Assembly: GCA_947467625.1 (NCBI GenBank)
Contig: CANIJN010000028.1
Location: 1-33,965 of the forward strand
Origin: Opitutia bacterium
GTDB taxonomy: Bacteria; Verrucomicrobiota; Verrucomicrobiia; Opitutales; Opitutaceae
Length of the DNA stretch: 33,965 nucleotides
Direction: 5' to 3'
The notes beneath the pieces were generated by a model. The model made no database searches. It was not told the origin of the DNA and saw only the letters and a list, made by a program, of their open reading frames with translations. This document shows positions 11,927 to 18,915 of this stretch, one piece after another. Position 1 is the stretch's first letter; each line of letters starts with the position of its first letter. Both the position numbers and the translations under genes were made by a program.

Positions 11927-14032
11927 TCAATAGACGAAAGAGAGTTGGATGCCGACGCGGCGCGGGGCACCGGGGCTGCCGGCGAAAATCTCGGGATTTA
12001 TAAACCGGTAGTGGTCTTGGTCGAAGAGATTTTGTCCGTAAACGGCTACGGTGTAGTGGTCGAAACGGTAGCGGAGCTGAGCATTGACGAGGCCGTAAGC
12101 GCGTTGGGCAAATGTAGCGGTGTTGCGCTCATCGTAGTAAGTCTTGCCGACTGCGGCGTAGCTCGCATTGGCGGACCAGCCTTGGCCAAAATCGACGGTC
12201 ACGCCCGTGCGCAGGGTGTAGGTAGGGATGAAGGGCACGTACTTGCCATCGACGCGGGTGCCGGCGGCGTCGCGGTGGTCGTCGAAGGTCGCGCTCGTAT
12301 AGCCGGCTTGAAAATCCCACCAGACTTTTTCGACAGGACTCCACATAAACTTCGCTTCGAAACCGCGGGCGATGACTTTGGCCGCGTTGACCACGACGAA
12401 ATCGGTGGAGTTGGGGACGGTCCGTTCGAATTGGTCGTTATCGATGGCATTCCAGAAGGCGAGGACGCTGCCGCCGAAGCGGCCCTTGGGTGGGCCGAAG
12501 GTGACGCCGGCTTCGGTGGCCCAGATTTGTTCGCCGTCAAAGCGGGCGAGCAGGGGATTGCCGGTGAAGCCGCTGTAGCCCTCGGGTTTGTGAGCGATGG
12601 ACGTTTTGGCCTGGAGGTTGAGGGACGAGGAGACGGAGTGCACGACGGCGGCCGACGCGGAGAGCGTGTTGTCGCTTTGGGAGCGGGCGAGGCGCGGGTC
12701 CTGCGGGGAGGGAAAGCCGAGACTGTTCGACGCGACTTTGGTGCGGTCGAGGTCGGACGCGGAGTGCTCGAGGCGGGCACCGAATTTGAGCGTCGTCTTG
12801 GGGGCCAGCGGTTGATCGAGGTTGGCGTAGGCGGCGAGCGTTTTCTGGCCGATGGCGAAGACGGAGCGTTCGGTTTGCACGAAATTCGGCGGCACGTAGG
12901 CGCTCGGTGGGACGACGAAGACGCGCTTGGCATCGCCATTGATCGCGGAGTCGGAGTGGAAGGCTCCGGCGCGCCACTGGGTGCGCTGGGCGCCGGGGGT
13001 CGACTCGAACCGGATTTCCTGCGTCGTGAATTTCTCACTCTGCGTCACGTTGGACGAGGCGAGGGGGAGGGGAGATAGATCGAGGTCGTTGATGGAGGGA
13101 TCGAGGTCCCAGTCTTGGCTGGATGTCGTCACCGCCATGGTGCCCCACGCGAAGGTTTTCTTGGCCTGAAGTGAAAGCTGAATACGCTCCACCTTAGTTG
13201 CACCGTTGGTATCGGATGCGACCTTGAACGGATCGGGACTGAAAAGGGAGGTCAGACGCGTGGCGTCGTCACTGGTTTTTTCCATCGTGAGACCGAAGCG
13301 GACCTGGAGTTGGTCGGCAGCTTTCCAATACAGTGCGCCGCGACCGGCGACGGAGCGGCGGTCATCCGCGCTACGGTTCTTAAAGGTGTTGGTGATGTAG
13401 CCCTCGTGTTCGGATAAGCCGACGCTGGCGCTGTAGCCGACTTTGTCGTTGAGCGGACCGTCGAAGGAAGCTTGGAGGGCAGAGTATTTATAGGAGCCGT
13501 AGTCGAGGAGGACGTTGCCCTGGTGAGTCGCGCCGGGGGTGCGGGTCTTGATATCGATGACGCCGCCGGGGGCGTTGCGACCGTAGTCGGTGCCTTGGGC
13601 GCCGGCCTTGACGGTGAAGCTCTCGATATTGAGCAGTGAACTGGGGTAGGAGGAGACGGAGCCGCTGGGCACATCGTCGATCACGAGGCCGATGGCTGGG
13701 GAGGAGAAGAAAATGGAATTGGTCACGCCGCGGAGGGAGATGACGTCGCCGAAGCCGCGGGTGTCGCTGTTACTCGTGCCGAGATTCGGGGCGAGGCCGG
13801 CCATGTCCTGGAGTTGCGCCACCCCGTGCTGTTCGAGGAGGTATTGGTTAAGTACCGACTGGGAATTCTGAATCCGCAGGCCATCAACGCCGAATTCGGC
13901 GGCGACGTTGAAGGGCGCCATTTGGGTGGTTTGACCTTCCGCCGCGACGATGCGGATTCCGGTGATTTCAGTGGCGGCCGTGATGAGCGCGAGAGCGCAA
14001 ATAGGGCGAATGTTTCGCGTGGTAATCTTCAT
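11927..14032 (-). CDS. TonB-dependent outer-membrane receptor
   Basis: A 701-residue receptor. The N-terminus (MKITTRNIRPICALALITAA) is a signal peptide, followed by TTQMAPFNVAAE, a likely TonB-box region. The plug domain runs to about residue 170 and includes LQDMAGLAPNLG, ISLRGVTNSIF and YGRNAPGGVIDIKTR, the classic plug signatures. The rest is a 22-stranded barrel ending YGQNLFDQDHYRF...VGIQLSFVY, with the aromatic last residue needed for outer-membrane insertion. It is shorter than siderophore receptors with a signalling domain and has no such extension. Such proteins import scarce ligands such as siderophores, vitamins, oligosaccharides or aromatics, and the ligand is not readable here. 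It is the first gene of the leftmost cluster, preceded by a G8 tract and a pseudogene. A small stem (14066-14079) lies in its leader. Confidence 0.93.
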   Translation of the reverse strand: MKITTRNIRPICALALITAATEITGIRIVAAEGQTTQMAPFNVAAEFGVDGLRIQNSQSVLNQYLLEQHGVAQLQDMAGLAPNLGTSNSDTRGFGDVISLRGVTNSIFFSSPAIGLVIDDVPSGSVSSYPSSLLNIESFTVKAGAQGTDYGRNAPGGVIDIKTRTPGATHQGNVLLDYGSYKYSALQASFDGPLNDKVGYSASVGLSEHEGYITNTFKNRSADDRRSVAGRGALYWKAADQLQVRFGLTMEKTSDDATRLTSLFSPDPFKVASDTNGATKVERIQLSLQAKKTFAWGTMAVTTSSQDWDLDPSINDLDLSPLPLASSNVTQSEKFTTQEIRFESTPGAQRTQWRAGAFHSDSAINGDAKRVFVVPPSAYVPPNFVQTERSVFAIGQKTLAAYANLDQPLAPKTTLKFGARLEHSASDLDRTKVASNSLGFPSPQDPRLARSQSDNTLSASAAVVHSVSSSLNLQAKTSIAHKPEGYSGFTGNPLLARFDGEQIWATEAGVTFGPPKGRFGGSVLAFWNAIDNDQFERTVPNSTDFVVVNAAKVIARGFEAKFMWSPVEKVWWDFQAGYTSATFDDHRDAAGTRVDGKYVPFIPTYTLRTGVTVDFGQGWSANASYAAVGKTYYDERNTATFAQRAYGLVNAQLRYRFDHYTVAVYGQNLFDQDHYRFINPEIFAGSPGAPRRVGIQLSFVY

Positions 14033-14054
14033 TATGGCTTAAAGGTGTGTGGTC

Positions 14055-14079
14055 GGGGGGGGCTCCGAGGAAGACCTCG
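14055..14079 (-). promoter_or_regulatory. Leader of the receptor gene: G8 homopolymer and small hairpin
   Basis: On the plus strand a run of eight G (14055-14062), C8 in the mRNA sense, lies 23-30 bases upstream of the receptor ATG at 14032. Beside it is the stem cgagg-aaga-cctcg (14066-14079). I could not place a convincing -35/-10 pair further upstream. The spot fits a slippage-prone expression switch, but only the sequence itself supports this. Confidence 0.35.
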
Positions 14080-14240
14080 TAATGCTGACACGACGCTCTT
14101 TCCCTGTCTGAAAGTGCGATACTCCGTCCAGTTTTTTCGTCGTGATGAGGTGATTTAGTAGCGAGGCGAGCAGCGCCCGCGGCCAGCCCGGCGTTTGGGA
14201 ATGGTTTGCTCGTCATCGACGGGGAGCATCGGCGCGCGGA

Positions 14241-14541
14241 TCAACTGGCTCGGGGGGCGCAGCAGACCATTTCCTGCAGGTAGCGGGGGCGGGCGAGATA
14301 CTGGCGTTCATCGAGGGTGAAGTGCTCGTGAAAACGGAGGCCACCCTTGGCGGGGTCGGTGGAAAGGTTGGGTTGCACGTGGTCACCTAGGGGAAGGTCA
14401 CGCCGCCGGCCTTGCGTGTGAGGGGGAGCGACCCGGCGATGAAACGGCGGGATAGTGGGTGCGGTCGAGAACCGCCGTGGGGAGGGTGATCGCGTCGTCG
14501 GCTTGGTCGCACTGCCGGCACGCCCTCGTGAAGACGTCGGA
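14241..14541 (-). pseudogene. Glutamate dehydrogenase N-terminal remnant, two frameshifts
   Basis: Three consecutive pieces on the minus strand, each in a different frame, follow the N-terminal order of a Glu/Leu/Phe/Val-type glutamate dehydrogenase. The first (14541-14449) reads SDVFTRACRQCDQADDAITL with LDRTHYP. The second (14455-14393) reads SRRFIAGSLPLTRKAGGVTF. The third (from 14387) reads HVQPNLSTDPAKGGLRFHEH and then FTLDERQYLA. In intact enzymes the third piece is GYRVQHN..RGPxKGGxRFHPxVxLDE, which carries the substrate-binding residues. The catalytic Lys region and the whole NAD domain are absent, and the match fades after about 14290. The start codon cannot be placed. It is a decayed gene, on the same strand as the receptor gene and directly upstream of it. 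Confidence 0.75.
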
Positions 14542-14755
14542 ATCGCCGAGCGACGAGACCACCGCGCTGGACCTCTTTCCTTTCGGGTCTGGCGTTGCGG
14601 GGGCGGGCTGTGACAGCGCTGCGTCCCAAGGGCACCGGGCGTCATTGCTTGGTGGCCGACCTTGGTTGGGGTGGGTGGGTTTAGCCATTGGCTTTCGGGA
14701 ATCCGGAATTTTCAATGATTGCCCTTATTTCCGCGGAGAAATTCCGTGTTCACTC

Positions 14756-16198
14756 ATGCTCACTGTCATCTTTCAGTTTATCCGTTGGGTCTTCGAGAAG
14801 TTCGCCGTGGGCGTGCTAATCGTGGGCCTGGGCTTTGCGTCCTGTGGGCTGTGGCTCTTCTTGAAGGACAACGTGGACTTCGAACAGTGGCGCCAGGACG
14901 CGGTCCGTGCGATCACGGGTGAGCGGTCGAAGGTGAAGAGTGCGTTGGACGATGTGCATAAACGGATGGATCGCATTTCCGTTGAAATCACGGCCGAGCA
15001 GGAGCGCGGGAAGCAGGCGGACAAGATTATCGCCACCCTCAGGGACTTGGAGAGCACCTGGGACAAGCTGACGGGTAACTCGGAGCAACAGAAAGCCAAT
15101 GCGGAACGTATCCTGAGTCTCGCGACACTACGACTAACGGTAACGGCCAAGGTCGCGGCGCTCCAGCGGGATTTTACGCGGACTACGTGGGAGCGGGATG
15201 GACTGGAGATCGCGCTGGGTAAGATCGATCAGAAACTGACTGCGGCGCAGGAGCAGCAGTCGAAGGTGCTGCATTACGCTGAACGCGCGTGGAACCATGA
15301 AGTCGGATGGGCGCCGATCCGCATGGCGATCAAAGGATGGGTCGTGGTGGCGTTGGGGCTCTACTTCCTCGGCCCAACGGCGGGGAGAATCTGGCTGTAT
15401 TATTTTCTCGCGCCGTGGATTGCGCGCGGGCGTCCGGTGCGGCTGGAGGAGCGGCTCGCGGTGCTGCCGGAGGTGAGCGCAAGCCAAGTCTCGGCGACGG
15501 TGATGCTGCGGACCGGCGAACGGCTGTGGGTGAAGGAGCGGTTCCTCCAGTCTTCGGATGAGGGGCTGAAACGGCGAGGTCGGACCATGCTGGACTGGAC
15601 GATCCCATTCACCTGTGTCGCGACGGGGTTGGTGGAGCTGATTGAGCTGAGCCATCGCGGGGGGAGCGGGGAGGCGCAGCTCACGCTATCCCACCAAGGC
15701 AATGCCCTCAGCGAGCTCGCGGTGATCACGTTGGCCGAAGGATCCTCGCTCGTGCTGCGGCCGAGTTTCCTCGCGGGGGTCGTGACGAACGAGGGCCAGC
15801 GGCTGAAAATCCGCCGCCGCTGGCAGCTCTTTCGGTGGCAGGCCTGGGTGACGCTGCAGTTTCGATTCTTTGAGTTTGTGGGACCCTGCCAGCTCGTGGT
15901 GGCGGGTAGCCGTGGCGTGAGGGTGGAGCAATTATTGGCGCGCGACGGAGGGGCGGTGGCGGCGCGGCGGACGAATCAGGACGCGACCATGGGCTTTACG
16001 CCTCAGCTCGATTATCGGCCGGTGCGCGCGGAGACGTTTTGGAGCTACTACCGAGGGATGAATCCGCTCTTTGACGATCTGTTTGCGGGCCAAGGGATTT
16101 TTATTTGCCAGCAAGTCGCCGGCTCCGGTGAGGCGCAGCAGGCGCGGAAATTTTGGGCGGGTGTGTGGGGTGGGGTGCTGAAAGTGTTTGGGCTGTGA
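14756..16198 (+). CDS. Unrecognised membrane coiled-coil protein with beta-rich C-terminal domain
   Basis: A 480-residue protein. There is one hydrophobic segment at about 12-36 (FEKFAVGVLIVGLGFASCGL), a charged helical stretch at about 45-175 likely to be a coiled coil (SALDDVHKRMDRIS, IIATLRDLESTWDKL), and a second hydrophobic segment at about 193-220 (GWVVVALGLYFLGPTAGRIW). A beta-rich domain follows to the end. Parts of that domain (LTLSHQGNALSELAVITLAE and FFEFVGPCQLVVAGSRGVRV) recall the AIM24 fold, a weak assignment. With two membrane segments the coiled coil would lie on one side of the inner membrane, probably the periplasm, with the C-terminal domain in the cytosol. The start is ATG 14756; a GGAG about 17 bases upstream is too distant to be a good ribosome site. 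The stop is 2 bases before the phosphatase gene, so they are probably cotranscribed. Confidence 0.8.
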   Translation: MLTVIFQFIRWVFEKFAVGVLIVGLGFASCGLWLFLKDNVDFEQWRQDAVRAITGERSKVKSALDDVHKRMDRISVEITAEQERGKQADKIIATLRDLESTWDKLTGNSEQQKANAERILSLATLRLTVTAKVAALQRDFTRTTWERDGLEIALGKIDQKLTAAQEQQSKVLHYAERAWNHEVGWAPIRMAIKGWVVVALGLYFLGPTAGRIWLYYFLAPWIARGRPVRLEERLAVLPEVSASQVSATVMLRTGERLWVKERFLQSSDEGLKRRGRTMLDWTIPFTCVATGLVELIELSHRGGSGEAQLTLSHQGNALSELAVITLAEGSSLVLRPSFLAGVVTNEGQRLKIRRRWQLFRWQAWVTLQFRFFEFVGPCQLVVAGSRGVRVEQLLARDGGAVAARRTNQDATMGFTPQLDYRPVRAETFWSYYRGMNPLFDDLFAGQGIFICQQVAGSGEAQQARKFWAGVWGGVLKVFGL

Positions 16199-16200
16199 CC

Positions 16201-16863
16201 ATGGAAAATATCGGAATTCTTTTCGACTGGGATGGGGTGATTATCGACTCGTCGCGGCAGCATGAAGCGAGTTGGGCGCGGCTGGCCCGCGAGGAAGGGC
16301 GCGTGCTGCCGGAGGGGCATTTCAAGACCGGTTTCGGCAAGAAGAACGAATGGATCATTCCGCAGCTCTTGAATTGGGCGAGTGAGCCGGCGGAGGTGCG
16401 GCGGCTCTCGCTGCGCAAGGAGGCGGCGTATCGCGAGATCGTGGTGGAAAGCGGATTGAACGCGTTGCCCGGGGTGCGGGTATTCTTGGAGCGTCTGCGG
16501 GATGCTGGCGTGCCGACCTGCATCGGGTCTTCGACGCATCGCGAGAATATCACGACGCTCTTGGGCGTGCTCGGGTTCGAGGGATTGTTCGGCGGCATGG
16601 TGACGTCCGAGGATGTGGCGCACGGCAAACCGCATCCGGATGTATTTCTCAAAGCGGCCGCGAAGACGGGCGTCGCGCCCGAGTGGTGCGTCGTTTTCGA
16701 GGATGCATTCGCGGGGATTGAAGCGGGGCATGCGGGCGGGATGAAAGTGGTCGGGGTGGCGACGACGCACCCGGAGACGGAACTTACCGGTAAAGTGCAC
16801 CGGGTGGTGCACCGACTGGATGAGCTGACGGTTGCGGATTTGCGGGCGCTGGTTTTCGGTTGA
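16201..16863 (+). CDS. HAD-family phosphatase or phosphomutase (beta-PGM-like)
   Basis: A 220-residue haloacid dehalogenase-superfamily protein of subfamily I. Motif I is FDWDGVIIDS, with nucleophile Asp9 and acid/base Asp11. The cap domain spans about residues 17-80. Motif II is the Ser/Thr of IGSSTHRE, motif III the Lys of HGKPHPDVF, and motif IV the acidic pair of VFEDAFAGIEA. The pattern is that of beta-phosphoglucomutase, CbbY and phosphoglycolate phosphatase relatives, so the substrate is probably a small phosphorylated sugar or acid. It lies 2 bases after the membrane protein gene and 3 bases before uvrB, in one likely operon. No signal peptide is visible, so it should be cytosolic. 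Confidence 0.9.
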   Translation: MENIGILFDWDGVIIDSSRQHEASWARLAREEGRVLPEGHFKTGFGKKNEWIIPQLLNWASEPAEVRRLSLRKEAAYREIVVESGLNALPGVRVFLERLRDAGVPTCIGSSTHRENITTLLGVLGFEGLFGGMVTSEDVAHGKPHPDVFLKAAAKTGVAPEWCVVFEDAFAGIEAGHAGGMKVVGVATTHPETELTGKVHRVVHRLDELTVADLRALVFG

Positions 16864-16866
16864 GCG

Positions 16867-18915
16867 ATGCGTTTCAAGCTCGTCTCCGATTACCAGCCGA
16901 AGGGCGATCAACCGTTGGCGATTGCACAGCTCGTGGCCTCGGTGAATGCGGGGAACAAGCACCAGACCCTCTTGGGAGTCACGGGGTCGGGGAAGACGTT
17001 CACGATGGCGAACGTGATCGCGCAGACGCAGCGGCCGACGCTGATTCTCTCGCACAACAAGACGCTCGCGGCGCAGCTCTACTCGGAGTTTAAAAATTTC
17101 TTTCCCGAGAACGCGGTAGAGTACTTTGTCAGCTTCTACGATTTCTACCAACCGGAGGCCTACATTCCGTCGAGCGATACGTTCATCGAAAAGGATTCGT
17201 CGATCAACGAGGAGATTGAACGGATGCGGATCGCGGCTTCGAGTTCGCTGGTGTCGCGGAGGGACGTGATCGTGGTCGCCAGCGTGTCGTGTATCTACGG
17301 ACTAGGTTCGCCGGAAGAATTTTCCGAGATGCGCATTCCGTTGCGGCGCGGCGCGTCGTTGGGGCGACAGAAATTCTTGGAGAAGCTCGTCGATAATATC
17401 TATGAGCGAAACGACTACGAGTTGAAGCCCGGGCGGTTTCGGGTGCGGGGAGACACTGTGGACGTGATGCCGGCGTATCTGGAGCACGGGCTGCGTGTGG
17501 AATTTTTTGGGGATGACGTCGAAGGGTTGAGCGAGTTCGATCCCCTGACCGGCGAAGTGCTCCGCACGCTCGACCAGTTCGATCTCTACCCGGCGAACCA
17601 ATATGTGACGAGCCGTGGGAAACTGGAGCCGGCGATTCACGCCATTCGGGCGGAGCTTGATGAGCGCGTGGCGTTCTTCGAGAAGAACGGCCAATACTTG
17701 GAAGCGCAGCGGGTGCGCATGAGGACGAATTACGATTTGGAGATGCTGCAGGAAATGGGCTTCTGCAACGGCATTGAAAATTACTCGCGACATCTCACGG
17801 CGCGAAAGGCGGGGGAGCGGCCATTCTGTCTGATCGATTTTTTTCCGAAAGATTTTCTCCTGATGGTGGACGAGAGCCACGTGACCGTTCCGCAGATCGG
17901 CGGGATGTTCAACGGGGACAAAGCGCGCAAGACGACGTTGGTGAATTTTGGGTTCCGGCTGCCCTCGGCGTTGGACAACCGGCCGCAGAGCTTTGCGGAG
18001 TTTGAGCAGGTGACGGGGCAGACGCTCTATGTCTCGGCGACCCCGGCGGAGTTTGAACTTAAGAAATCGACGGTCATCGCCGAACAACTCATCCGGCCCA
18101 CGGGATTGATTGATCCGGAGATTGTGCTGCGGCCGACGAAGAACCAAGTGGAGCATCTCATCGGCGAGATCAAAGCGGCCACGGCGTTGGGGCAGCGCGT
18201 GCTCGTGACGACGTTGACGAAACGCCTGTCGGAAGATCTCACGAGTTATTTCCGAGAGGCGAAGATCCGGGTGGAGTATTTGCACTCGGATATCGATGCG
18301 ATCGAACGGGTCGAGATTCTGCGCAATCTGCGATTGGGGAATTTTGATGTGCTCGTCGGAATCAATCTCCTGCGCGAAGGGCTCGATCTGCCCGAGGTGG
18401 CACTGGTGGCGATCCTCGATGCGGACAAGGAAGGTTTTCTGCGCAGTGAAACGAGCCTCATCCAGACGGCGGGCCGGGCGGCGCGGCACATCGAAGGGCG
18501 GGTGATTTTCTACGCAGACAAAGAGACCGATTCGATCAAGCGCACGATGGCGACCGTGAAGTATCGCCGGGAAAAACAGATCGCCTACAACACGGAGCAC
18601 GGCATCACGCCGCGGAGCGTGATGCGCACGGCGCAGACGAGCCTGCGCGTTTACGATGGTTCCGGCGTGCGACCGGAGGATGAGCCGATGGTGGCGGAAA
18701 GTGCCGACGAGGTCGCGGCGGTCATCGCGGAGTTGGAGTTGGATATGCAGGAGGCCGCGGGGCGGTTGGAGTTCGAACGCGCGGCCCTGTTGCGGGATCA
18801 GGTGAATGCGCTGAAGAGCGGGGATTACCGGAAGGTGGCGCAGGCATCGTCCAAAGAATATCCGAAGTCCAAGGCGGGGGCGGGCGGGACGAAGGGGCGG
18901 AAGTCGCGTCGGTGA
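16867..18915 (+). CDS. uvrB: Excinuclease ABC subunit B
   Basis: A 682-residue UvrB, the usual length. It is the DNA-damage verification helicase of nucleotide excision repair, loaded by UvrA, with UvrC cutting afterwards. The Walker A loop is GVTGSGKT (37-44). The strand-separating beta-hairpin region is YDFYQPEAYIP (91-101). The DEAD-like motif appears as VDESHVTVPQ, and the helicase C-terminal motifs include VGINLLREGLDLPEVALV and QTAGRAARH. The C-terminal UVR domain that binds UvrC is present (AAGRLEFERAALLRDQVNAL), followed by a Lys/Gly-rich tail. ATG 16867 lies 3 bases after the phosphatase stop. No LexA-type operator is evident in front, so its expression probably depends on the promoter of the upstream membrane protein gene. 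Confidence 0.98.
   Translation: MRFKLVSDYQPKGDQPLAIAQLVASVNAGNKHQTLLGVTGSGKTFTMANVIAQTQRPTLILSHNKTLAAQLYSEFKNFFPENAVEYFVSFYDFYQPEAYIPSSDTFIEKDSSINEEIERMRIAASSSLVSRRDVIVVASVSCIYGLGSPEEFSEMRIPLRRGASLGRQKFLEKLVDNIYERNDYELKPGRFRVRGDTVDVMPAYLEHGLRVEFFGDDVEGLSEFDPLTGEVLRTLDQFDLYPANQYVTSRGKLEPAIHAIRAELDERVAFFEKNGQYLEAQRVRMRTNYDLEMLQEMGFCNGIENYSRHLTARKAGERPFCLIDFFPKDFLLMVDESHVTVPQIGGMFNGDKARKTTLVNFGFRLPSALDNRPQSFAEFEQVTGQTLYVSATPAEFELKKSTVIAEQLIRPTGLIDPEIVLRPTKNQVEHLIGEIKAATALGQRVLVTTLTKRLSEDLTSYFREAKIRVEYLHSDIDAIERVEILRNLRLGNFDVLVGINLLREGLDLPEVALVAILDADKEGFLRSETSLIQTAGRAARHIEGRVIFYADKETDSIKRTMATVKYRREKQIAYNTEHGITPRSVMRTAQTSLRVYDGSGVRPEDEPMVAESADEVAAVIAELELDMQEAAGRLEFERAALLRDQVNALKSGDYRKVAQASSKEYPKSKAGAGGTKGRKSRR

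Follow-up and report, generated by a model that had tools for sequence, protein, structure and literature searches.

A gdhA remnant between a receptor gene and a 480-aa gene

The window, a stretch of 33,965 nucleotides from an Opitutia bacterium (Opitutaceae, Verrucomicrobiota), belonged to a 5.6-Mb draft assembly (G000; 362 contigs, 96.1% complete). As listed below, its minus strand carried at 14265-14574 the broken 5′ part of gdhA, a Glu/Leu/Phe/Val dehydrogenase gene, between a TonB-dependent receptor gene and a gene for a 480-aa protein.

11927-14032, minus: TonB-dependent receptor gene, now adjoining the remnant (PF00593, 9.6e-32; PF07715, 7.9e-11)
14033-14227, minus: DNA upstream of the receptor gene, colinear with that of congener G004 (82.7% over 208 bp, gene start included); outer edge overlaps a scrap and is uncertain
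14206-14239, plus: 34-bp scrap of a DndB-like gene (29/34 bases), from a part of the gene ~250 bp away from the next scrap in G004
14237-14264, plus: 28-bp scrap of the same DndB-like gene (27/28 bases as in G004)
14265-14574, minus: gdhA remnant, 5′ part in three frames, start codon lost, internal deletion (six-frame reading; DNA and protein comparison)
14449-14574, minus: gdhA piece 1, N-terminal residues, RSSAVVSSLGDSDVFTRACRQCDQADDAITLPTAVLDRTHYP (six-frame reading; part at 65% identity, E 0.0024)
14390-14449, minus: gdhA piece 2, second frame, RRFIAGSLPLTRKAGGVTFP and then a stop (six-frame reading; DNA alignment with congeners)
14265-14387, minus: gdhA piece 3, third frame, GDHVQPNLSTDPAKGGLRFHEHFTLDE and later LARPRYLQEMV, ~100 bp gone between the halves (69% identity, E 1.4e-5)
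14756-16198, plus: 480-aa protein without a Pfam family, orthologues divergently beside gdhA (Pfam; locus comparison)
16201-16863, plus: HAD-family hydrolase (Pfam)
16867-18915, plus: uvrB (Pfam)

Six-frame reading of 14800-14033 gave three peptide pieces in three frames in the order of glutamate dehydrogenase (GDH), as the first-pass annotation had described, and the match to GDHs that it expected was present. When the 406-aa GDH of G004 (L032:2598-3818; PF02812, 5.4e-55; PF00208, 9.3e-64) was used as a query against the window's genome, its residues 48-79 matched 14387-14292 (the 69% match) and residues 2-27 matched 14523-14446 (the 65% match), both with one-genome E-values; the middle piece gave no separate match in this search. 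On the DNA level, 14620-14292, including ~45 bp upstream of the gene, aligned at 77.3% over 331 bp (E 4e-71) with G004 and at 78.6% over 331 bp with G003, in which gdhA is intact. These matches established homology with gdhA at a level far beyond chance. The end of piece 3 corresponded to a gdhA stretch ~100 bp further on; the copy of it in the sister genome G001 matched at 81% over 37 bp (E 4e-4), and the window copy sat within a weaker 64% match (E 6e-5). The start codon was lost in G000 and G001 alike.

Congeners G003 and G006 have at the same place a gdhA of the same sequence family that is open throughout (424 aa, counted from the first Met), whereas the window keeps the first part, broken, and the piece ~100 bp on. 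PF02812 and PF00208, which a functional GDH holds in one open frame, were not so found in the remnant, and neither model had a match in G000 at E 0.001. The first-pass limits of 14241-14541 lay in the right region, but the coding remnant starts near 14574 and ends near 14265, and 14264-14206 consists of the two scraps of a lost neighbour gene, not of gdhA. The scraps agreed with G004 at 27/28 and 29/34 bases; the best that 60 random sequences of matching base-to-base frequencies achieved was 19 for the one and 21 for the other. Other short DNA matches between the window and G004 were weaker (E 0.009 and above).

Gene order in relatives and deletions in the window

Relatives of the 480-aa protein defined 29 loci, all from genomes labelled as metagenome-assembled and as Opitutaceae or Opitutae (Verrucomicrobiota). 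In 28 of them gdhA or its remnant lay divergently beside the orthologue, and the 29th (L077) was cut by a contig end; 27 had GDH matches of at least 217 residues and one, the locus of G001 (L049), had the remnant. gdhA sequence was likewise beside the orthologue in 8/8 congeners, as a remnant only in G001 and split over two contigs in G005. By this constancy gdhA is old at this place and was inherited vertically. Of the 28 loci, 24 had uvrB and 13 had the HAD phosphatase, some contigs being short, which bore out the expectation of gdhA beside phosphatase-uvrB genes in relatives. In these 28 Opitutaceae loci the 480-aa protein, which has no Pfam family, has kept its place next to gdhA and often also near uvrB.

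In G004 a single contig (L032) gave the order 480-aa gene, gdhA, unnamed gene, convergent DndB-like gene, receptor gene and PQQ genes, with the following positions.

L032, 2598-3818: gdhA
L032, 3623-4714, plus: unnamed gene, no Pfam family, frame only
L032, 4921-6045, minus: DndB-like gene (PF14072, 2.7e-8)
L032, 7124-9229: receptor gene

The receptor gene was already downstream of gdhA in G004, 3.3 kb off, with the unnamed and DndB-like genes between. In G003, gdhA was on one contig and another contig joined the DndB-like gene to the receptor gene, so that the order from gdhA to the receptor was whole in G004 only. gdhA and the DndB-like gene were linked also in G006, L072, L074 and L075. Compared with G004, the window lacked ~4.0 kb in at least four stretches (L032 2833-2934, 2967-5363, 5390-5642 and 5675-~6936, the last edge uncertain by some 20 bases, where the flanking matches overlap), and between these gaps it kept the last gdhA piece and the two scraps of the DndB-like gene. 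As the receptor lies beyond these genes in G004 and is joined to the DndB-like gene in G003, the junction in the window arose by loss of the intervening DNA: it was made by deletion, not by insertion of the receptor.

The first-pass annotation had raised the possibility of an insertion of the receptor cluster next to an old gdhA locus; on this reading the insertion, into gdhA or beside it, would have broken the gene. The receptor does now adjoin the gdhA stump, and the receptor cluster stands in another setting in G007, but as a cause of the decay insertion is refuted by the arrangement in G004, where gdhA is full-length and other genes separate it from the receptor downstream, and by that in G003, where the receptor is linked to a long intact DndB-like stretch (323/374 residues). 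Scraps of the DndB-like gene, moreover, sit at the junction in the window itself. At the insertion site of a mobile cluster gdhA would be interrupted at the cluster border with its neighbours kept; here the intervening genes were deleted. We regard such an insertion as very improbable.

The looser proposal of a rearrangement beside an old gdhA locus held in part. The cluster may have moved there, in the ancestor of G000, G001, G003 and G004, but this would have been before G000 and G001 split from G003 and G004, and so before the decay. The one genome to suggest the move is G007, in which the orthologous receptor cluster comes after an array of PQQ-repeat genes; for one such gene the best match in G000 (80%; best match per genome, among the matches listed, with many paralogues) was on contig C1, not C28. 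In L072, L074 and L075, where gdhA and the DndB-like gene both occur, the available DNA showed no receptor match, and no close receptor relative was found in G002, G005 or G006. Cluster and gdhA were on different contigs in G008, and contig ends limit the view in G006 and G008. No tRNA that might serve as an integration site was found in L051, L052, L072, L074, L075 or L038. At ~79000-98000 of contig C1, G000 had many close-set PQQ-repeat matches, some with in-frame stops (among the matches listed), related to the genes beside the receptor cluster in G007.

The DndB-like gene was long and open beside gdhA in L051, L052, L072, L074 and L075, and only fragments of it were found in G007, G008 and L061 (L034:362-493; L090:490-780; L061:8292-8512); it too seems, from these sequences, to be eroding repeatedly. 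The DndB-like proteins of G003 and G004 were identical over 323 residues. The unnamed gene behind gdhA had matches of 57-77% identity in L033, L034 and L037, and there seem to be two tandem copies in L074.

Age of the decay and loss of constraint

The independently assembled sister genome G001 had the same remnant, scraps and junction as the window. Its contig C279 ran parallel to the window as far as position 14059 (1345 aligned bases, 95.3% identical) and ended in 149 bases identical to those with which the receptor-bearing contig C74 begins. A tree of the 480-aa protein placed G000 and G001 together as sisters (support 100/98). Among 245 gdhA sites that are alike in G003, G004 and G006, 30 changes were common to G000 and G001, 15 were private to G000 and 11 to G001, and two sites differed in both. 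The breakpoint had first been called recent, which these counts and the common junction contradict; the decay began before G000 and G001 separated and is not very recent.

By codon position (1/2/3), G000 and G001 differed at 15/9/5 sites of the remnant, compared with 9/5/61 for the receptor gene (Fisher p 2e-9) and 9/1/20 for the 480-aa gene (p 2e-4). The remnant differences showed no codon constraint. Homology and orthologous position tie the remnant to gdhA, and a frame disrupted relative to intact orthologues, together with codons free of purifying selection, is what characterizes a bacterial pseudogene.

Some 300 bp remain where ~4.0 kb went, part of the remnant in G001 is spanned by an open frame of 157 codons, and the window has an open frame of 134 aa at 14645-14241, all of which could speak for a remnant kept for use as a short protein, a small RNA or a control region of the divergent gene. 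The window, however, holds 134 ORFs of at least 80 aa, and open frames across the remnant are therefore unremarkable. The remnant differences (29/268) were as dense as those at third positions of the receptor gene (61/701; p 0.32) and denser than those at third positions of the 480-aa gene (20/480). A known RNA was rejected, as L049 and L051 gave no match in a gathering-threshold Rfam scan. The chance of a retained use is thus slim indeed. The draft state of the 362-contig source might suggest that the gene is really intact and that errors of sequencing or assembly produced its frameshifts and gaps; this is ruled out for practical purposes by the matching remnant, scraps and junction in G001, as well as by the many substitutions without a codon pattern and the lack of a GDH elsewhere in G000. 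All genomes seem to be draft metagenome assemblies, and an intact gdhA hidden in the few percent missing from the G000 assembly would require chance absence in both sisters.

Glutamate metabolism, other gdhA lesions and known systems

No other GDH was found in G000 with the PF02812 and PF00208 models or the G004 query. PF05088, for a large NAD-GDH as replacement, was present in 0/9 genomes of the genus, including G000, and in 1/14 control genomes. In G000 a complete large subunit of glutamate synthase was encoded once, the gene after it had small-subunit domains, and glutamate synthase was detected in 8/9 genomes of the genus by protein search and in 7/9 by PF01645. None was found in G001, where the nearest contig (C121) starts just beyond those genes; because of this the absence is probably an assembly gap, and a true loss was judged unlikely. 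In a wider sample PF02812 matched in 40/57 genomes, and in 35/45 of the more complete ones; GDH absence is therefore not rare in the order.

The remnant is almost certainly the wreck of a vertically inherited gdhA that decayed in the ancestor of G000 and G001 and was cut down by several deletions. Selection on gdhA ceased in that ancestor, where glutamine synthetase and glutamate synthase presumably covered glutamate synthesis; glutamate synthase may thus have made gdhA dispensable. The gene accumulated frameshifts and substitutions, and its start codon was lost. Four or more deletions, probably by illegitimate recombination, took the unnamed gene, the greater part of gdhA and, except for two scraps, the convergent DndB-like gene; the receptor gene thereby came to adjoin the stump. 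This is an ordinary, well-resolved pseudogene, new as an instance but of a known kind, with the receptor as a bystander. It corrects the idea of a receptor insertion and shows clearly how a gene of central nitrogen metabolism was removed step by step, with the order of the lost genes still legible in the scraps.

Lesions were seen in three of the 27 other gdhA loci (L051, the locus of G004; L068; L076), while 24 were without a break as far as readable (22 at full length, L055 and L067 in part). The G004 gdhA had a stop at codon 10 and a two-codon deletion. Its own changes fell 7/5/7 over the codon positions, against 8/0/89 on the G006 side (p 5e-7), and counted from Met17, 7/12 substitutions were at positions invariant in 24 other aligned proteins; the 480-aa gene of G004, too, had a slight surplus of changes at positions 1 and 2 (3/6/6, p 0.09), and a later start at Met17 could serve its gdhA. 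This gdhA copy lies from L051:9771 upstream. The copy of L068 (8587-7364) had one in-frame stop and that of L076 (9805-8585) several stops and frame breaks. Single stops in draft genomes may be errors, and together these loci give a mild hint of recurrent gdhA loss.

It is possible, though we hold it only tentatively and think it rather unlikely, that gdhA has been lost repeatedly and independently at this conserved place in Opitutaceae, as a convergent and perhaps selected abandonment of GDH, with glutamine synthetase plus glutamate synthase taking its place, for example under scarce ammonium, and with the DndB-like gene eroding too in several lineages. The loss would then be finished in G000 and G001, beginning in G004 and under way in L068 and L076. 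Only such recurrent lesions could make the case more than ordinary, and if the loss is recurrent, a cause such as ammonium scarcity could be tested across habitats.

A literature search at the level of titles and the beginnings of abstracts found no report of gdhA decay in Opitutaceae. In Salmonella, according to Kuo and Ochman 2010 (PMC2916853), 346/378 pseudogenes had a single inactivating mutation. As described there, those pseudogenes resemble the present case in their conserved flanking genes, in deletions, frameshifts and start-codon loss, and in wear mainly by deletion; the gdhA remnant, in contrast, has many lesions, like the rare strongly degraded sort in that set, and comes from a different phylum. 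The loss of ammonia-assimilation genes in Blochmannia, as described in PMC3017870, is similar in that a nitrogen-assimilation gene was lost and the loss was traced against relatives. There the gene was glnA in an obligate insect mutualist, whereas in the 5.6-Mb genome studied here gdhA was lost and glutamate synthase was kept.
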